A DNA stretch of 64,000 nucleotides from Cupriavidus sp. P-10 (GTDB taxonomy: Bacteria; Pseudomonadota; Gammaproteobacteria; Burkholderiales; Burkholderiaceae): contig NZ_AP025172.1 in the NCBI RefSeq assembly GCF_003402535.2, positions 744,001-808,000 on the forward strand, given 5' to 3'. Numbering within the stretch: position 1 is the stretch's first letter; each line of letters begins with the position of its first letter. The notes below the pieces were generated by a model that ran no database searches, had not been told where the DNA came from, and saw nothing but the letters and a program-made list of their open reading frames with translations. Both the position numbers and the translations under genes were made by a program. Shown in pieces: positions 15,827 to 25,252 of this stretch.

Positions 15827-16960
15827 TCACTTCGGGCAGGGATGCTCGCTGTCGGCTGGAACCGCACAACTTTGTCGTTGGGCATCTTCGAAGACGGCCG
15901 TACACGATGTTCCATTCTTGAAGCCATGGCCAGAATACCACGGCATTACGTGGGGACGTTTGGGTTCCGCTTCCGCATCGGCACGAAGGTTCAAAGCAAG
16001 ATCGAACATCGAATGTTCCGATATCGCATTGGGTGAAGCTTCATAGCCAAACCGAACTTCCTGGATGTGGCGGTCCGGGGCGAAGAAGAGCTTATGAATG
16101 AAGCGCAGATGCGTCAAAATTTCATACGACTCGTAGAACCGATAGATTCTGGCTTCGGCGCCAAGCTCCTGTAGGCAGGAGCAAGCAGATACAACGCGGC
16201 CGCGATTATCGGTGTCAGTATGGGCGGTGACGGGGCTCGAGTCGAACGCGTATGCTTGATCGATGTATTCGGGTAGCGCATAAAGGATATGTTGTGCCAA
16301 TCCTCCCCCTAGCGAATGCCCCGCTGAGCTAAACCGGATGTCGGTTCCGTCAGTCGGACGACCTGGTCCAACTCTAAAGTATTCAATGACTCTTCGGGCT
16401 ATGTCTTCTGCCCGGCCATACTGATTTTCTTTCGTGAACCAACGAGTGACCCAATATAGGTTTCCGTAGACCCAATCGTCAGTGCTATCGTTGTCGGTGC
16501 CTCTGAAGGCAATGACGACGTCAAGCTTCCCACCAGCCTTTCGGGACCAGACATGGTAGGAGAAGCCGAGGTCGTCCTGACAGAAGCCAGCTGGCGAGAT
16601 TGCCTCATCGATTTGCCAGCGAGCGCCACCGCGGGTACTCGCTTCAAGTGCGTTTCGTAGCTTTTCTAGCGCCACAGGCGAAAGCTTTTTTTTCTTGGTA
16701 GAACAAGACTCAGCTTCTTCGTACGCAAGTGCGGCCATTGCTGCATAGGGCGCAAACCTAGCTGCGCCCGCACGACCGTCCTCCAGCTTCATTCTCACCT
16801 GAGAGGAGCGGATACGTGGCACATCCTCACCAAGAACTTTGCCGCCCGGCTCAACGCAATCGTCGACGCTCAAATGTGTGCACCCTACGCACAGAAACAA
16901 GCTGCCGAGCTGCATCGCGCTTTTCATCCGCTTGCCAAATCGAAAACGCCAATTGGCCAT
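15827..16960 (-). CDS. Lipase class 3-like lipoprotein
   Basis: A probable secreted or outer-membrane esterase/lipase. The start is ATG 16960 (MANWRFRFGKRMKSAM), with GGAG six bases upstream. A lipoprotein signal ends in the lipobox LCVGC. The alpha/beta-hydrolase core has YHVWSRKAGGKLDVVIAFRG, typical of the class 3 oxyanion strand, and the nucleophile elbow GHSLGGGLAQ. Candidate catalytic Asp and His are in AYAFDSSPVTAHTD and near the C-terminus. About 377 aa, so full length. The Lys run TKKKKL near residue 90 comes from a run of A/T bases. Neighbours give no pathway. Confidence 0.88.
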   Translation of the reverse strand: MANWRFRFGKRMKSAMQLGSLFLCVGCTHLSVDDCVEPGGKVLGEDVPRIRSSQVRMKLEDGRAGAARFAPYAAMAALAYEEAESCSTKKKKLSPVALEKLRNALEASTRGGARWQIDEAISPAGFCQDDLGFSYHVWSRKAGGKLDVVIAFRGTDNDSTDDWVYGNLYWVTRWFTKENQYGRAEDIARRVIEYFRVGPGRPTDGTDIRFSSAGHSLGGGLAQHILYALPEYIDQAYAFDSSPVTAHTDTDNRGRVVSACSCLQELGAEARIYRFYESYEILTHLRFIHKLFFAPDRHIQEVRFGYEASPNAISEHSMFDLALNLRADAEAEPKRPHVMPWYSGHGFKNGTSCTAVFEDAQRQSCAVPADSEHPCPK

Positions 16961-17290
16961 CTGCAGCTCCAGCAAGCAAAAGCAATTGCCATCGGGAAGT
17001 GATCATAACTATCGTGCAAAAAATATCGGTCCTCAACCGCGGCAAGGAGCAAACAGCCTTTTGCCTGTTGAGCGCACAACTCGGCGATGTAGCTTAGCGG
17101 CTCTGTACCCTGCGGGAGCTGGATGGACACCCCACTTCGGTTGGGTGTTTACGTGGCAATTTTTGATCCCGGTCAACCTCCGCTTGCTATAGATTGTTAA
17201 GACATTTAGAACGACCGGTTCCGCTTAGCAGGACCGGCAATAAGTGCCTTTTTCGTATCAGCAGCTGGCGTAGGCACAAAGCCGCCGCCG
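16961..17290. other. Intergenic region between divergent genes
   Basis: 330 bases carrying the promoters of the lipase gene (minus) and the GGDEF/EAL gene (plus), plus a UUCG hairpin at 17127-17150. No gene. Confidence 0.5.
17127..17150 (+). terminator. Hairpin with UUCG tetraloop, terminator-like
   Basis: ACACCCCA-C[TTCG]G-TTGGGTGT followed by TT. The stem has one mismatch and a stable UUCG loop. It would stop transcription entering from upstream before the GGDEF/EAL gene. No gene directly feeds it, so its target is unclear. Confidence 0.45.
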
Positions 17291-20200
17291 TTGCATCCGG
17301 GGGAAACAATCTTGCGCCAGTTGCTTGCGCGCATGCGGGGAACGCTTGGTCGCCTTGGGTCGCGGACCATCACGGCGGGCACGGTTCTGCTTGGTGTGCT
17401 GACGACGGCCGTCGTCTATGCGTTCTGCACAGATCTGCTGGAGAAGGACGTCCGGCTTCGTTTTGAGAACGATGCGGGCGACGTCGTCCAGCAGATCGAT
17501 ACACGGATCCGGCTCTATACGGATGTGCTGGTCACGATGCAGGCACTTTTTGGTGCCAGCGACCATGTTTCGCGCAGTGAGTTTCGAGATTTTGTCAGTG
17601 GCTTGAACCTGCCGCAGCGCTACCCAGGGTTCCAGACCCTCAACTACGCGCCTTATGTGCCGGCGTCCGAGATCGACGCCTTTGTCGCCCGGCAGCGCAG
17701 CGATCCGATCCTGCGCGAAGCGGGCGTGACGTTCCACATCCGCCCGCCCGGCCAGCGGCCAGGACACTTCGTACTGACCTACGTCGAGCCACTGGACATT
17801 AACGTCGCGTCGATCGGCATCGACATGGGGGCTGAACCTCGCCGTCTCGCGGCGCTGGAGCGAGCGCGCGATACCGGGCAATCAGTGAGCAGCGGCCGTC
17901 TGATTTTCAGCGAAGCCAAAAACCCCCATGTAGGCATCGCCCTGCGCCTGCCGGTGTACCGCAAAGTGCCGAACCTGGACTCAGTGGAAGCACGCCGCGC
18001 CGCTTATGTTGGTTCGGTCGGTGCAGGCATTCGCGTAGCTGATTTGCTGAAGGACCTGGTCAGCAATGAGAACCTGCGCTGGGTCAGGTTCCGTGTTTAC
18101 GATGCTGGGGACTTTGCGGCGCCGGCCGCTGCTCCATCAGCTACCAACCTCCTCTATGACAGCCAGACCGGGATGCCAAAGCCTGGCCTTGGCCGCGCCG
18201 TCGAGCAGTCTGCTGCCGAGACAGCCGCGGAGGGGCAAGCGGAACCGATCGCTCGCCCGCATGACTTGATCAAGAACGTGGACCGGAACTTCGGCGGACG
18301 TCGGTGGGTGATCGCATTCGCTGCCGACCCACGCGCGCTTGGTGGTCCGCAGCGCTACTTGCGGATGCTTGTGATAGTTTCAGGCGGGGTCATCAGCGTG
18401 CTCCTAGGCTGGCTGGCCTATGCCTTGTCCAGTTCGCGAGCACGCGCCGTCGCGGTGGCCGACCAAATGACGCACAGCTTGCGCGAGAGCCAGGTAGCGC
18501 TCGCCGAGGCGCAGCAGATTGCCCAACTGGGCGACTGGCGCATTGACTTTGGCAAAGGGAGCGCCCATTTTTCGCGGGAAATGGCGCGCTTGCTTGCTTG
18601 GCGCGGCCACAAGCCGACCCCGAACACACTCTTCCAGGCGATCGAGACCAGCCATCGTACGGTGCTGCGCGAGAGGATGGAAGCCGCTTTGCTTGACGGA
18701 CAGCCGTTCGAGTTCGAATGCCCCTATCGTTCACAACGGGGACGGCGGGGTTGGTTGCACCTCATTTGCCACGCGCCTGGCGCTGCGACGAAAGGTACCG
18801 CCTTGCGCGGTACCGCACAGGACATCAGCCAGCGTAAGTCAGCCGAGCAAGCTCGCGCTCAGGAGCATCAAATTACCCTGCACCTTGCCACGGCCAACAG
18901 TGAAGTCGAAGTACTGGAGGACATCGTTCACACGCTGCTTGAGGGTATGGAGTGGGAGGCTGGGGCGTTTTGGCCAAGCGACAACAACGAGGGGTCGAAG
19001 CTGCCTCAGGTGTGCCTGAGCCGCGTTAAGGCGTTCGACCCGTGGCTCGCTGCGCGGCCCGTTCGCCCAACGGCTGCTTCGGCTCTGCAGGCGCCGGAAT
19101 GGTATGCGGGGCTTCATGACGTTGCGCGGCATTCGCAAGCCGGCTGGCTCGCTACAGGCGGGATCCGTACGGTTTTCGCTTTTCCTCTGAGCAGGGGGCA
19201 CGTGACACTTGGCGTCGTTGAGCTCTATTCCCGGACCAAGCGCAGCCCCGATGTGCACGCGCTGGCGATGGCCAGTGGCATTGCCAGCCAGACTGGGCAC
19301 TTCCTACTGAGGCGCCAGGCTGAGGAGAATCTGCGTTTTATTGCCAACCACGATGCCCTCACTGGGCTACCCAATAGGCTGATGTTCAGGGAGGAGTTCG
19401 ATAAGTCGCTGACACGTGCCCGCGCCGCCGGGCAGTCCCTCCATGTGATTTTTGTCGACCTGGATGAATTCAAGGTCGTTAATGACACGATCGGGCACAA
19501 CGCCGGTGACACGGTGCTGCGCGAAATAGCCGACCGGCTTCGCGAAGGCTTGCCCGATGTAGAGTTGATCACTCGCTTCGGTGGCGATGAATTTGTCGTG
19601 CTGCTGGACCCAAAGGGCGACTCGACGGTTCTCGGCCGGACCATCGCCAACATTCAGGCTGTGATGGCGCCCGGTTTTCTCGTCAATGATTCCGAAATGC
19701 GCATGACCGCAAGCATCGGTATCAGTTCATTCCCCCAGGACGGCGACGACTGGCAGACACTGCTCAAGCATGCCGACCTGGCCATGTACGGGGCCAAGCA
19801 GCTTGGCAAGAACGGCTATCAGTTCTACTGCAGCGGCATGAGCACCTCGTTGCAGCGGCGTATCGATATGGAATCGCACCTGCACCGCGCGCTCGAGCAG
19901 GACGAATTTGTGCTCTATTACCAGCCACGCATAGCGCTCGCAACGGAAAGCTGCACCGCGATCGAAGCACTGATTCGGTGGCGCCACCCCGAGCTTGGTT
20001 TAGTCATGCCCGCAGATTTCATTCCCTTCGCTGAGGAAAGCGGCGCGATTGTCGAAATCGGCGCATGGGCATTGCGCGAAGCCTGCCGCCAGAACGCTGC
20101 ATGGCGCGCCCAGGGGCTACCGCCGGTGCGGGTTTCGGTCAATCTATCGGCGCGTCAGTTTGCCGACAAGTCGCTTCGGCTTACCATCATCGACGCCTTG

Positions 20201-20671
20201 CGTCAGGCAGGCCTGCCCGGCAACTCACTGGAACTGGAATTGACGGAAAGCATGGTCATGCGCGATGCCGAACAGGCGTCAAACTGGTTGTCGCGACTGA
20301 AGCGTACGGGCGTGCGGCTGGCAATCGACGACTTCGGTACCGGTTATTCCTCGCTCGCCTACCTGAGCCGTTTCCCGATCGATACGGTCAAGATCGATCG
20401 CAGCTTCGTTCGGTATGTACCGGAAAGCCGCAGCGACACGCAGATCACCAGCGCCGTGATTGGCCTCGGTCACCGGCTCGGCCTAGAAGTCGTCGCCGAA
20501 GGTGTTGAGAACGAGGCGCAGCTCGATTTCCTGCGTCGCGAGGGCTGCGACGAAGTACAGGGCTACTACTTCAGCCATCCGTTGCCGCCGGCGAAGATCA
20601 CTGCCTTCCTCGCCAGCTGCATGGAAAATGGCCCCGCTTTTGAGCGCGGTCAGCAACCGATGCGCGCGTAA
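17291..20671 (+). CDS. Membrane CHASE-PAS-GGDEF-EAL cyclic-di-GMP protein
   Basis: A large sensor that makes and/or degrades c-di-GMP. A TTG at 17291 gives 1126 aa. The ATG at 17333 is an equally good start. Domains in order: transmembrane helix (about 26-46), periplasmic CHASE domain (about 70-290, RYPGFQTLNYAPYV), second helix (about 356-378), PAS (about 403-515), a GAF-like region (about 525-680), GGDEF with intact RFGGDEF (about 763-768), and EAL with intact EALIRW, LELTES, IDDFGTGYSSL and EGVENEAQL. Both catalytic motifs look complete, so dual activity is possible. A PilZ protein encoded 1 kb downstream could be its receptor. Confidence 0.95.
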   Translation: MHPGETILRQLLARMRGTLGRLGSRTITAGTVLLGVLTTAVVYAFCTDLLEKDVRLRFENDAGDVVQQIDTRIRLYTDVLVTMQALFGASDHVSRSEFRDFVSGLNLPQRYPGFQTLNYAPYVPASEIDAFVARQRSDPILREAGVTFHIRPPGQRPGHFVLTYVEPLDINVASIGIDMGAEPRRLAALERARDTGQSVSSGRLIFSEAKNPHVGIALRLPVYRKVPNLDSVEARRAAYVGSVGAGIRVADLLKDLVSNENLRWVRFRVYDAGDFAAPAAAPSATNLLYDSQTGMPKPGLGRAVEQSAAETAAEGQAEPIARPHDLIKNVDRNFGGRRWVIAFAADPRALGGPQRYLRMLVIVSGGVISVLLGWLAYALSSSRARAVAVADQMTHSLRESQVALAEAQQIAQLGDWRIDFGKGSAHFSREMARLLAWRGHKPTPNTLFQAIETSHRTVLRERMEAALLDGQPFEFECPYRSQRGRRGWLHLICHAPGAATKGTALRGTAQDISQRKSAEQARAQEHQITLHLATANSEVEVLEDIVHTLLEGMEWEAGAFWPSDNNEGSKLPQVCLSRVKAFDPWLAARPVRPTAASALQAPEWYAGLHDVARHSQAGWLATGGIRTVFAFPLSRGHVTLGVVELYSRTKRSPDVHALAMASGIASQTGHFLLRRQAEENLRFIANHDALTGLPNRLMFREEFDKSLTRARAAGQSLHVIFVDLDEFKVVNDTIGHNAGDTVLREIADRLREGLPDVELITRFGGDEFVVLLDPKGDSTVLGRTIANIQAVMAPGFLVNDSEMRMTASIGISSFPQDGDDWQTLLKHADLAMYGAKQLGKNGYQFYCSGMSTSLQRRIDMESHLHRALEQDEFVLYYQPRIALATESCTAIEALIRWRHPELGLVMPADFIPFAEESGAIVEIGAWALREACRQNAAWRAQGLPPVRVSVNLSARQFADKSLRLTIIDALRQAGLPGNSLELELTESMVMRDAEQASNWLSRLKRTGVRLAIDDFGTGYSSLAYLSRFPIDTVKIDRSFVRYVPESRSDTQITSAVIGLGHRLGLEVVAEGVENEAQLDFLRREGCDEVQGYYFSHPLPPAKITAFLASCMENGPAFERGQQPMRA

Positions 20672-20745
20672 CTACGTCAGTCAAGCGTGTGTTGTGCAGA
20701 TTTCAGGCAGTCAAAAATCAGCCAAAAAAAAGAGGGAGCTGAATC

Positions 20746-21354
20746 ATGCAAGACCGTACCGTGCAATCCATGTGGGAAGCCATCGACACGCTCAATTTTT
20801 CGAGGATGAAGGCTAAGCTGCTGCATCAGCAGCATCGTGACTGGACGATGGAATCCTTGGAGGAGGCCGAGGGCGGCTACCGTCAGTTTCTGAAGCTGGC
20901 CGCGAAGTATCCGGAAACGCCGGCGGTGCCCAGCGAATTGGTCGATGCGTTCTGGCATGCCCATATCCTGGATACCAGGCGCTATGCCGATGACTGCGTC
21001 CGCATCTTCGGATACATCCTGCATCACGATCCCTATGTTGGTATTGATGGCCCGGAAGACGAGGCTCGTCTGATGGCAATGGCAGCGACCAGCGATGCGC
21101 TGAACATGCGCGAGTTCGGCAGCCCTCTCACCTCCTCGGCTTACTGCGCTCGCGCCGCGACGGACAACGCCGCGTATTGTGCGCGCATGGCCAAGGAGAC
21201 GAATGCCGCGTACTGCGCGCGCATGGCCGAACGGCAGGATGCCGCCTACTGTGCAAGGCTAGCGGGGACTGACGATCTCGTCTCTCAAGGTCGCGCGCTC
21301 GCCCCCCGGCCGGCCTATTGCGCGCTAACATCGCCTCGGACTGTGGCTTGCTGA
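20746..21354 (+). CDS. GRDP-like protein with C-terminal Ala-Tyr-Cys repeats
   Basis: A 202-aa protein with a good site (AGGGAG) before ATG 20746. Residues 1-110 resemble the glycine-rich-domain-protein (GRDP-like) fold, with ELVDAFWHAHILDTRRYADD and a following HH pair that could bind metal. The C-terminus carries four adjacent units of 11-12 residues, each built on AYCAR (SAYCARAATDN, AAYCARMAKETN, AAYCARMAERQD, AAYCARLAGTDD), then PAYCALTS near residue 189 and a final Cys. No signal peptide is present. The regular Tyr-Cys spacing suggests metal binding or a post-translationally modified repeat, as in multi-core RiPP precursors. No modifying enzyme is adjacent. The function is unknown. Confidence 0.85.
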   Translation: MQDRTVQSMWEAIDTLNFSRMKAKLLHQQHRDWTMESLEEAEGGYRQFLKLAAKYPETPAVPSELVDAFWHAHILDTRRYADDCVRIFGYILHHDPYVGIDGPEDEARLMAMAATSDALNMREFGSPLTSSAYCARAATDNAAYCARMAKETNAAYCARMAERQDAAYCARLAGTDDLVSQGRALAPRPAYCALTSPRTVAC

Positions 21355-21625
21355 AGGCTGGTCTATCGTTGGTTGCCCATGCTGGGTCCGCAGTCCTCCA
21401 TAGGCCGCGGTGGCCGCAGTGGAGATGAAGTGCGGCTGGCATGGGCCCGTGTATGATGACGCACGGGCAACTCCCTGCCGTCTCCCAGATGGCAAGGAAC
21501 GAAGTTTCACCGTAATCGGCTTTTGACCCAAAGTACTTTAAGCCGGCTTTAAGAACCTTGAATCGCGCCGCAGGAACCTGGCTGTTCCGCAGTCGGCCAT
21601 TATTTCCATGTGGGAAGAAGTAGCA

Positions 21626-22330
21626 ATGAGGCGAAGCGCCGATCCGGAATCAACGCTCGCCTCCCTAGTTAGTCTCGTGCTCCAGGATCTCGCTTGGCTC
21701 AGTTGTGAGGTGACAATACGCGTACACGGTGGCTACGCTATTACCACGAAGCTGCTGAAGGTTGACCCGGCGAACAGAACGTTTGTCTTCGATGGCTGCC
21801 GCACCGATGCAGAGCGCGAAGTTTTGCTTGCCTCGGGGCAACTCGATTTCTCCACCATATTGCGAGGCGCAGAGACTGCTTTTTTGGTAGAAGATCCGCA
21901 GGTCATTAATTTTCAGGGTAGACAAGCGTTGGCAGCTGCCTTCCCGCTGCGAATCCGCTGTGCTGAACGTCGGCGGCATCCCCGTGCACCTGTGCCGGCT
22001 TCTTTGCGGTTTATCTGCGACCTGCCACTTCAGAACGGTGAGCGGTTGAGACTGGAAATTGGGGACGTGTCACAATCCGGCCTCGGTCTGCGAGCGCAAG
22101 AAAGCGACATCCGTCGGTTACCAATCGGCACGGTAGTGAGAGGCTGCAAGCTGGAACTTGGTCAGCAGCGCTTGCAAGATCTTACGCTCCAGGTAGCTGG
22201 ATGCGGCTTGCAGTGGCAGGGTCGAAGTGTGATGCACATACTCGGCTGCGCCTTTGTCTCGCTCCCACTTCATCAGCAGACCGTCTTACAGCGACTGGTC
22301 TACCAAATCGAACGCGCACGCCGGGCATGA
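21626..22330 (+). CDS. YcgR-like PilZ-domain c-di-GMP receptor
   Basis: A cytoplasmic c-di-GMP effector of about 234 aa with the two-domain build of flagellar brake proteins: an N-terminal YcgR domain (residues about 10-110) and a C-terminal PilZ domain. The c-di-GMP signature is present as RRRHPRAPV followed by DVSQSGLGLR. The ATG at 21626 is chosen because GGGAAGAAG lies just upstream; an ATG at 21608 is also in frame. It lies near the GGDEF/EAL gene on the same strand. Its output could be motility, pili or surface structures; nothing here identifies the target. Confidence 0.88.
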   Translation: MRRSADPESTLASLVSLVLQDLAWLSCEVTIRVHGGYAITTKLLKVDPANRTFVFDGCRTDAEREVLLASGQLDFSTILRGAETAFLVEDPQVINFQGRQALAAAFPLRIRCAERRRHPRAPVPASLRFICDLPLQNGERLRLEIGDVSQSGLGLRAQESDIRRLPIGTVVRGCKLELGQQRLQDLTLQVAGCGLQWQGRSVMHILGCAFVSLPLHQQTVLQRLVYQIERARRA

Positions 22331-22506: not shown

Positions 22507-23121
22507 ATGAGCCTTCTGGCAGCTGCCGTTCTCGCCGCCTTTGCAGCACCCGCCTTCGCAAACAACAGCGCCGTCACCACGGTGCAAGCCGGTGACAACA
22601 ACCTTGCCAGTATCGATCAGTCCGCCTCCGATGGCTCCGCGGTGACGGTGATCCAGACCGGCAGCAACAACACCGCCGGCACCCCGCCGGCACGATCACG
22701 CAGACGTCTACCTACAGCGCCATCAACGTCAACCAGCTTGGCGATGGCAACGTGGTGGGCGCCAGCTCGCAGAACGGGTACGCCAATACCGCCAACGTCG
22801 GCCAGGTCGGCACCTACGGGCAGAATGCCTCGTTCGTGCAAAACGGCCAGGCCAACCAGACTGCCATCAGCCAGACGTTCGAACTGTCGGGTGGCCAGCA
22901 GGCAAGGACCGAACAGTACGGCAACAGCAACACGGCGGCCATCGGCCAGGCGTACGGCCAGTATGAGTTTGCCAATATCATCCAGGCCAGCAGCAACAAC
23001 ACGGCCGCGATCAACCAGCTGGGCAATTACGGCCAGGGCGCGGAGATTGCCCAATCCGTCGGCGACTACAACACCGCCGGGATCGCGCAGACGGGCAACC
23101 AGGGCACTACCGCTGGCATCG
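22507..23121 (+). pseudogene. Curlin (CsgA/CsgB-like) gene, frameshifted and 3' truncated
   Basis: The first frame gives a signal peptide (MSLLAAAVLAAFAAPAFA) and curlin-type repeats (NNSAVTTVQAGDNNLASIDQ). Near 22680 the reading shifts to another frame that continues AGTITQTSTYSAINVNQLGD, then further Gly/Asn/Gln repeats (NTANVGQVGTYGQNASFVQN, NNTAAINQLGNYGQGAEIAQ) up to about 23120. There it runs into kinase-type sequence in a different frame. Intact curlins are secreted amyloid subunits. This copy cannot give a full protein unless the shift is a sequencing error, and its 3' end is lost. Confidence 0.8.
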
Positions 23122-23122
23122 C

Positions 23123-25252
23123 GGCGATACCTCGGCCTACCTGGTCAACCCCAGCGGCCCTCCCGTCAGCAACCTCCAGCGCCTTGCACGACCAGAAGTT
23201 TTCCTGGCCATCAGCGAGGCAATCCGGCAGGTGCGTCAGGAAGGTATTGCCGTACGCAAGACCGGGTTGCGGCTCGGCAGCGCTGGCGGATCCACCGTTG
23301 CGCGCCTCGAAGTGCATCCCGTCCAGACCACCGGCGTTGATGGTCGCTGGTTCCTGGTCTTCTTCGAGAGCACGGAAGTACCCGAGGACGACGTGGCAGC
23401 GGGCAGGCGGTCGACAATCAGCACGCTACTGTTGCAGACGTTGAGGCAACGGCTGGGGCGCAAGGCTGCCGCCAATGGGGCCGACGCCAGAGATGAGGAG
23501 ATCGCACGGCTGAACGCCGAACTGAGCGCGATGCGCGTGCGGATTCGAACCATGCTCGAAGAACATGAAAGCGCGCGCGAAGAGCTTAAGTCCAGCGAAG
23601 AAGAGCTGCTCTCGAGCAACGAGGAATTCCAGAGCACCAACGAAGAACTGGAAACGGCCAAGGAGGAACTCCAGTCGCTGAACGAGGAACTGTCGACCAC
23701 CAACGACGAGTTGCGCTATCGCAATCACGAACTCAAGACCCTGCACGGCGAGGTTGTCCGCGCACGTGACTATGCCGACGCGATCATCGAAACCATGTCC
23801 GAGCCGTTGCTCGTGTTGGAAGCCAACCTGCGGGTGACGCGGGCCAATCGCGCCTTCTACCACACCTTTCACACCATCGCCGACGATACCATCGGCACAC
23901 TCCTTTACGCGCTGGGTAACGGACAGTGGAATATCCCCAGCCTGCGCGAGCTGCTCGAAAAGTTGCTGCCCGAGCGGACTGTCATTCGGGATTTCGAGCT
24001 CACGCATGATTTTCCAGACATTGGGACGCGCACAATGCGCGTGAACGCCGCACGCGTCCGCGGGCGCGCGCATGAGCTGATCCTGCTGACCATTGAAGAC
24101 ATTACCCAGTATCAGCTCGCGGTGGACCGACTCGAGACGGCCGATCACCAGAAGGACGAGTTTCTCGCCATGCTGGCCCACGAACTGCGCAATCCGCTGG
24201 CGGCAATCGGCAATGGTCTCGAGATCTGGGGGCGTGAGAATGTTGACCCGCAGACACAACAGCGGGCGCGGGCGGCGGCCAGGCGCCAACTGGATCACGA
24301 GATCGGCCTGGTTGATGATCTGCTGGATGTATCGCGCATCAGGCACGGCATCATCAAGCTCAATCCAAAGCCCCTCGATCTGGCCGAGATTGTGCAACAC
24401 GTCGTCGACACCATGCGCGCGGAAATCGACGTGCATCAGCACCAACTGGTACTTTCCTTGCCCGCGTCGTTGGCTCTGGTGATCGAAGGCGATTCCATAC
24501 GGATCGAGCAGATCGTGGCCAATTTGCTGGGCAACGCCATCAAGTACACGCCACCTCGCGGACGCATTGCAGTCTCGGTCGTACGCGATGGCGACGACGC
24601 GGTGCTGACGGTTGCCGACAACGGCATCGGCATGACAGCGGACTTCTTGCCGACCGTCTTTACCATCTTCGTGCAGGGCGACAGCTCGCTGGACCGCAAG
24701 TCCGCGGGTCTCGGACTGGGTCTGGCACTGGTGCACCAACTGGTTGAATTGCATCACGGGACTGTGCAGGCTTCGAGCGGCGGTCCGGGCCGGGGCAGCA
24801 CGTTCGTGGTACGGTTTCCCGCGCTATCGCATGCAATCACGCAACAAGACGCCACCAAGGATGTGGAAGCCGTCCCCCAAGCCGCTCCGAAGCGGATCCT
24901 CGTGGTGGACGACAACGCCGATGCAGCCGAGAGCACAGCGATGGTCCTCAGGCTCGACGGGCACGAGGTGAAGATCGCGAGCGATGGTCCGTCCGCCTTG
25001 CAAAGCGCGGCGGAATTTCATCCGGAGGTCATACTGCTCGATATCGGGCTGCCGGCCATGGACGGCCACGAAGTCGCCCGGCGACTGCGCGCGATGCCCG
25101 ACTTTGCCGATACCCTGCTGATCGCGTTGAGCGGATACGCCGGGGAAGAACATCTTGGCCGTGCAAGACAGGCAGGTTTTGACCACCACTTGGTCAAGCC
25201 TGCGGCCCTTGCCCAGTTGAATCGGTTGATCGCGTCCAAACATCGACGATGA
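23123..25252 (+). pseudogene. 3' part of CheB/CheR-PAS hybrid histidine kinase
   Basis: Homology begins at about 23123 (GDTSAYLVNPSGPP), part-way through a CheB-CheR-PAS-kinase fusion, so the CheB and CheR domains are missing. An internal GTG at 23231 could start a 673-aa protein. It has a long coiled coil (SSEEELLSSNEEFQSTNEEL), a PAS domain (about 175-295), HisKA with phospho-His in LAMLAHELRNPLAAI (about 316), HATPase with NLLGNAIKYTPP and DNGIGM, and a receiver domain with Asp in ILLDIGLPAMDGHE (about 603). The kinase part looks intact and might still work, but its usual sensory and chemotaxis inputs are gone. Confidence 0.85.

Follow-up and report, generated by a model that had tools for sequence, protein, structure and literature searches.

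A gene of Cupriavidus sp. P-10 encodes a protein which ends in a repeated Ala-Tyr-Cys (AYC) array and lies directly downstream of a gene for a CHASE-domain sensor. Both are contained in a 64,000-nucleotide stretch of forward-strand DNA (assembly GCF_003402535.2, NZ_AP025172.1:744,001-808,000), referred to here as the window. The array is a real repeat under selection, widespread and variable in number, and across genera its gene accompanies a same-strand gene for a sensor. Our preferred explanation, held tentatively and at less than even confidence, is that the array protein is a cytoplasmic partner of the CHASE sensor and carries a multivalent binding tail. To our knowledge most bacterial CHASE sensors have no known ligand, and we know of no molecular function assigned to the GRDP-like domain which forms the N-terminal part of the protein. 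An array gene travelling with CHASE sensors, whatever their output domain, offers a handle on both questions. The array is also a natural experiment, one short motif having been rewritten array-wide many times (Y, W, F, M or L; C or S).

The sensor gene, the array gene and the parts of its product are listed below by position in the window.

17291..20671, + strand: transmembrane sensor and cyclic di-GMP (c-di-GMP) enzyme with CHASE, weak GAF_2, GGDEF and EAL domains (Pfam), 1126 residues counted from the TTG of the longest open reading frame (ORF)
20672..20745, + strand: intergenic gap of 74 bp between the end of the sensor gene and the ATG of the array gene, read directly
20730-20738, + strand: ribosome-binding-like stretch AAGAGGGAG, seven bases 5' of the array-gene ATG, read directly
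20746..21354, + strand: GRDP-like protein with AYC tail, 202 residues, ATG start, read from the ORF
20746..21120, + strand: GRDP-like all-helical domain, residues 1-125, from a 78-row alignment and AlphaFold2 (AF2)
21121..21351, + strand: tail bearing the AYC cores, of low confidence and probably flexible (AF2 block predicted local distance difference test score, pLDDT, 37-49 past residue 130)
21139..21147, + strand: AYC core 1, residues 132-134, read directly
21172..21180, + strand: AYC core 2, residues 143-145, read directly
21208..21216, + strand: AYC core 3, residues 155-157, read directly
21244..21252, + strand: AYC core 4, residues 167-169, read directly
21313..21321, + strand: AYC core 5, residues 190-192, read directly

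An earlier, sequence-only reading of this DNA had described the AYC tail of the 202-residue ORF, and its five cores and terminal Cys proved to be well beyond chance. The cores are spaced at 11, 12, 12 and 23 residues. Five AYC are present in the 82-residue tail, and none of 200,000 shuffles of that tail gave more than three, which rules out a chance origin. Codon usage within the cores is mixed (Tyr c-t-c-c-t, Cys c-t-c-t-c) and the linkers have diverged, so that a recent DNA duplication in the window is also ruled out, as the same reading had concluded from the mixture of TGC and TGT. Taken over eight residues from each core, the mean pairwise identity of the units is 0.60 for DNA vs 0.66 for amino acids, consistent with selection acting at the level of the protein motif. 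Near-identical units do exist in some relatives, eg L077 and L080. The 9.08-Mb home genome gave one match to the array protein at E 0.001.

The N-terminal domain is predicted by AF2 to be helical, with confidence to about residue 125 (block pLDDT 85-98 over residues 1-130); the tail falls below 50, with weak strands drawn on the cores. There are 17 invariant columns in the 78-row domain alignment, and the residues concerned include W70, H71, H73, D76, T77, Y80, D83, C84, H94, P96 and G99. The label 'GRDP-like' given by the sequence-only reading is fair, although the match behind it is weak: Pfam PF07173 scored 21.0 bits (E 6e-4) against a curated cut-off of 22.7. Among relatives, L004 passes (24.2 bits), L005, L069 and L102 are below the cut-off, and L080 and L092 are unmatched. 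NCBIfam gave nothing up to E 10 for the window protein, TIGR04222 included. No relative of the domain was found in the PDB by sequence search or by Foldseek.

The first search for relatives found 149, a profile search 4378 and a further search 587, 120 being listed in each case; the nearest named relatives among the matches listed belong to Cupriavidus. Scanning one genome per species gave 77 loci, in Cupriavidus, Trinickia, Paraburkholderia, Noviherbaspirillum, Herbaspirillum, Variovorax, Aquabacterium, Undibacterium and others, with outgroups in Acinetobacter, Moritella and metagenome-assembled genomes. When the domain of the window protein was used alone as query, 44 of 300 genomes sampled within the order gave some match; many of these domain-only matches, among those translated, are distant proteins lacking such tails. 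The family is large, with 0 to 22 units per protein, and the CHASE sensor neighbour is a feature which the sequence-only reading had missed. The spacing of units is 7-26 residues, mostly 11-13 (242 sequences).

Several features of individual family members were also recorded. Copies occur on Cupriavidus plasmids (L039 and L040, on p2 and pSym); the pSym copy has a stop directly before the first Cys, and upstream of it the partner is seen only as an EAL piece. In P0123 and P0125 the GRDP-like domain occurs twice, with a short Cys-rich segment after each copy; CWH motifs are present in one of them. After the repeats, an RP.L-type ending is conserved in many relatives (LNTSLRPRLALAA, LGKGRPTLE, FYSERPRLKPAA). 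Such endings are found in arrays from outside Cupriavidus, eg L067, L069, L079, L179 and P0128, and some terminate in ALAA, which resembles the tag added by transfer-messenger RNA.

The sensor encoded upstream in the window has a CHASE domain at residues 91-280 (E 1.1e-45), GGDEF at 685-841 (E 2.9e-42) and EAL at 864-1097 (E 1.9e-76); the GAF_2 match (E 3e-5) is below its cut-off. Its relationship to the array gene was examined by comparing the window with the 77 loci (n=78), neighbours being identified with an in-house ORF caller and clustered by blastp. A CHASE gene lies within 7.5 kb in 58 of the 63 loci with at least two cores, whereas it does so in just 2 of the 15 with fewer (Fisher 3.5e-9). 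These two are L046, with one core, and L100, which is cut by the end of its contig. A codirectional upstream CHASE-GGDEF-EAL gene was observed in 45 of the 78 loci, with a gap of 100 bp or less, measured to the start of the match, in 44 of the 45. All 44 upstream proteins longer than 900 residues with a GGDEF motif also carry an EAL motif of the ExLxRW type.

The output domains of the sensor are not constant. Pfam identified the neighbour as a CHASE-HisKA_3 kinase in Noviherbaspirillum (L064), Herbaspirillum (L070), L073, L076 and L096, and within the first locus set Pfam confirmed six kinases as having both CHASE and HisKA_3; other Noviherbaspirillum loci resemble the L064 neighbourhood by blastp. 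One Paraburkholderia locus (L050) has both CHASE-GGDEF-EAL and CHASE kinase neighbours, and the Trinickia loci have a similarly clustered downstream gene, grouped by clustering alone. A second family of array genes was positive at E 1e-15 in 40 of 145 genomes, and a CHASE kinase is adjacent in 19 of the 20 loci fetched, L170 being the exception. We had considered c-di-GMP as the constant element and rejected it, the neighbour in other lineages being a CHASE kinase without GGDEF or EAL.

Presence and absence were then scored in 59 genomes of the genus plus the home genome, a strong match being defined as E <1e-60 for the array gene and E <1e-40 for the CHASE region. Both genes were present in 17 of the 60 genomes, CHASE only in 2, the array gene only in none and neither in 41 (Fisher 4.4e-13), and hence the two genes are gained and lost as a unit. 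Of the CHASE-only genomes, G346 is incomplete (78%), and G330 contains fragments of both genes side by side.

Judged from the sequences compared, the shared core is A-[Y/W/F/M/L]-[C/S], in which Tyr and Cys are both dispensable, and an array is generally made up of a single version. Among 1821 tail Cys in 242 sequences the preceding residue is Tyr in 81%, Trp in 9%, Met in 3.5% and Phe in 2%, and Ala stands two positions before the Cys in 90%. The dominant core was assigned in a census of 339 sequences (262 proteins and the 77 loci): YC in 215, WC in 23, MC in 23, YS in 13, LC in 11, FC in 8 and FS in 1. A further 34 with fewer than three cores were left unclassified and 11 fell into single or misread classes; eight entries labelled 'VA' reflect a shortcoming of the pattern, and among these the tails of P0134 and P0164 are Met-Cys arrays. 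In the 311 proteins with at least three cores, the rest having been dropped, 2447 of 2503 Cys in Cys-type tails are preceded by Y, F, W, M, L or V, ie are at the core position. Tail aromatics are confined almost wholly to the cores (1834 of 1904 in YC tails, 175 of 183 in WC tails); most are in the core in the Y, W and F arrays, and the M and L arrays have no core aromatics.

The Ser-type proteins number 14 and form two groups (13 YS with 8-13 units, and one FS with 5). None of the 14 has a Cys from the first core onward, and in four a single Cys is retained between domain and array. Members with Ser cores also keep the neighbour: a GGDEF-EAL gene is upstream of L069 and L079, and the AYS arrays of L179-L182 have a CHASE kinase beside them. 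The core type changes at least 17 times, and Cys and Ser are exchanged twice, on a tree of the N-terminal domain. This was a quick IQ-TREE run on 96 dereplicated rows and 126 columns, in which 45 of the 93 inner branches are open; both Ser groups are on starred branches, but the few columns and long branches make the stars less reliable. Mixed arrays are rare, P0081 and P0165 being the only ones among the 242 sequences, with AYS/AFS mixtures also seen in L180 and L181. The 'invariant' Tyr-Cys of the sequence-only reading therefore does not extend to the family, in which whole arrays use Phe, Trp, Met or Leu for Tyr and Ser for Cys. That reading had named homologues whose tails vary freely and lose Tyr or Cys as what would contradict it, and the replacements found come close to this.

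Two observations on array architecture stand apart from these counts. At L183:6382-7422 a single array alternates AWCDAV and SYSARPV-like units, placing Cys and Ser cores in one protein. Tandem array-gene paralogs lie beside one CHASE kinase at L179, L185 and L186, sometimes with differing core types (AYC and AFC in L186).

Three facts have to be explained jointly: the linkage to CHASE whatever the output, the hydrophobic plus Cys/Ser core, and the single core version per array. A multivalent motif read by a specific partner does so with the fewest extra steps. In the mechanism we propose, the helical GRDP-like domain, with its conserved His, Cys and Asp, would be the folded part, and the tail would be a flexible array in which short A-[bulky hydrophobic]-[Cys or Ser] motifs, separated by variable spacers, act as a multivalent binding element. 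The tail would be read by one specific, co-evolving partner, which might be the cytoplasmic part of the sensor, the protein's own GRDP domain or further copies of the tail; the switching of the core across whole arrays, at least 17 times, fits a specific partner better than general-purpose chemistry. In the home genome the sensor and the array protein would together adjust c-di-GMP when an outside ligand is sensed, and in other lineages the same module would serve a CHASE histidine kinase. The lack of a hydrophobic N-terminal segment in all 78 proteins compared also speaks for this reading. The confinement of aromatics to the cores would correspond to a sticker-and-spacer layout, with disorder taken from low pLDDT only and with M and L arrays that lack the aromatics.

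A number of points weigh against this proposal. Genomic association says nothing by itself of how the protein acts. Arrayless loci are mostly from distant lineages, and array, CHASE linkage and phylogeny are consequently confounded; the Fisher values are inflated by relatedness among the loci and serve as a guide only. Five array loci have no CHASE neighbour (L078, L079, L091, L098 and L104), as has L170 of the second family. The contig of L079 begins 1.7 kb upstream of the array gene, so that its neighbourhood is cut, and the GGDEF neighbours of L078 and L091 gave no more than a weak dCache_1 match. Two genomes of the genus (G312, E 6.9e-17; G336, E 1.3e-7) have weak GRDP-domain matches and no strong CHASE ortholog. 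Unequal crossing-over might suffice to maintain uniform arrays, and the conserved His, Cys and Asp in the GRDP domain could just as well be those of an enzyme.

The alternatives differ mainly in what they require of the Cys, of the period of the array and of accessory genes. The array protein could be a ligand precursor, its units processed, perhaps modified at Cys or Ser, exported and sensed by the adjacent CHASE receptor as a self-signalling pair. A short core repeated many times with variable spacers, its copies usually identical within a protein and differing between lineages as signal types do, would suit such a role, as would a neighbour with an extracytoplasmic ligand-binding domain (the 58 of 63 loci and 19 of 20 given above) and the exchange of Cys and Ser, which suits enzymes acting on both. 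We nevertheless regard it as unlikely. No hydrophobic N-terminal segment, and hence no such export signal, was found in any of the 78 array-family proteins (L042 has a hydrophobic stretch elsewhere than the N-terminus), no recurring transporter, protease or modifying enzyme was noticed in the neighbour clusters, most of which are unannotated, the uniform core is just 3-4 residues, and the home genome has no match to MNIO/DUF692 (PF05114) or YcaO (PF02624). It is a rather unlikely prospect, too, that the pair represents a new kind of self-signalling, in which the units, perhaps processed or modified with the aid of the protein's own His/Cys/Asp-rich GRDP domain, yield the CHASE ligand and the core type is a lineage-specific signal type. 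A RiPP-like scaffold (ribosomally synthesised and post-translationally modified peptide), with its enzyme encoded elsewhere and a purpose unrelated to the CHASE gene, seems very unlikely to us. A homologous domain is found in fusion with TIGR04222 proteins that end in Gly-Cys tails (L026 and L027), and of 57 GRDP-positive genomes found (17 from the genus, 40 from the second family) 41 were tested for enzymes (16 and 25), with MNIO present in 32 and YcaO in 29. Five of the 41, the home genome included, however, have neither (G000, G307, G326, G344 and G352), and thus neither enzyme is required. In 15 of the 25 second-family genomes tested, the array gene and an MNIO gene share a contig at a distance of 47-93 kb, and in one more they are 17 kb apart, the closest among those compared. 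This counts in favour of the scaffold but may mean little, as the shared spacing may be plain gene order of related genomes. The distant MNIO genes sit in a long frame of about 530-800 residues, eg in G056, G269, G298, G399 and G472. The sequence-only reading had raised the RiPP idea with the remark that no modifying enzyme is adjacent; the remark holds for the neighbours scanned and the idea lacks support in the home genome, although two SPASM matches there (C1:1552328 and C3:944582), neither at the array locus, leave room for modification in trans.

The Cys might alternatively bind metal or form reversible disulphides, so that the tail reports redox state or metal to the sensor. Regular spacing of the Cys, their near-complete restriction to the core position and the short Cys-rich tails of outgroup relatives are as this would have it. 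Set against them are the two groups which swap every core Cys for Ser and yet keep the array, with members retaining the GGDEF-EAL or CHASE-kinase neighbour, and a Cys content of about one per 11-13 residues, which is sparse for a metallothionein. We strongly doubt such a module, and a Cys metal site, a thiol-redox function or the Tyr-Cys crosslink suggested by the sequence-only reading was rejected as the shared function of the family on account of the Ser-type and non-Tyr arrays. Just as doubtful, in our view, is a structural array in which units stack as beta-strands in a solenoid or amyloid-like form and like residues form ladders that must change together. The 22-unit Paraburkholderia protein was drawn by AF2 with a regular strand per core, the block pLDDT being about 51-75, but false beta-solenoids are a known product of AF2 when it is given repeats (PMC11795689). 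The window tail, moreover, stays under pLDDT 50. A solenoid wants a constant period, and only 109 of the 283 arrays with at least five units hold their spacing within one residue.

Other genes near the pair in the window were noted. A YcgR-like PilZN-PilZ protein, a c-di-GMP effector, is encoded at 21608-22330, 253 bp downstream of the array gene, with two hybrid histidine kinases further downstream. The PilZ protein was rejected as a conserved partner, the downstream genes of relatives varying in size and cluster. At 22507-23140 curlin-like repeats follow an apparent signal peptide, and the frame switches inside, between the start and most of the repeats; the sequence has the look of a disrupted curli-subunit gene, or else of a sequencing error. 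On the - strand, 15827-16975 is a lipoprotein-like ORF without a Pfam match at E 0.001, and its GHSLGG we take to be a serine-hydrolase-type motif.

The sequence-only reading did not recognise the repeat tail as described, and our literature searches, which covered open PubMed Central (PMC) papers only, likewise found nothing on the tail or on the array-CHASE system. Multi-copy precursors such as yeast alpha-factor and multi-core RiPPs have copies of a short core on variable spacers and a receptor gene nearby; the array proteins differ in having no export signal found and a core of just 3-4 residues. The N-terminal domain appears related to that of the GRDP-like/DUF1399 family (PF07173), which includes the plant proteins AtGRDP1 and AtGRDP2. 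Likeness to a further family, PF27765 (PF27765.1), rests on annotation precomputed by the protein database for the 120 listed of the 149 relatives, P0001 among them. PMC4299439 describes the AtGRDP2 C-terminus as a glycine-rich region with interspersed cysteines; AtGRDP2 has a glycine-rich tail and an RNP-like motif, whereas the window protein has A-hydrophobic-[C/S] cores and a CHASE-linked gene. The TIGR04222 membrane proteins L026 and L027 share a homologous domain and end in repeated Cys, and that class has been proposed as partly MNIO-modified (PMC12452194). The window protein, unlike them, has no TIGR04222 domain, no membrane-type hydrophobic stretch and no Gly-Cys tail. Distant homologues of the domain have short Cys-rich ends (Acinetobacter, Moritella) or, in apparent membrane proteins, Gly-Cys ends. 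The joining of a GRDP-like domain to a low-complexity tail that bears Cys may therefore be a general design, of which the A-hydrophobic-[C/S] array with CHASE is one variant. The partner sensor is similar in architecture to Azospirillum CdgD (CHASE-PAS-GGDEF-EAL; PMC7804937), and the terms downstream, operon, hypothetical protein and Gly-rich do not occur in that paper. Relative to CdgD-type sensors, the new element is the pairing of a CHASE sensor with an array protein.
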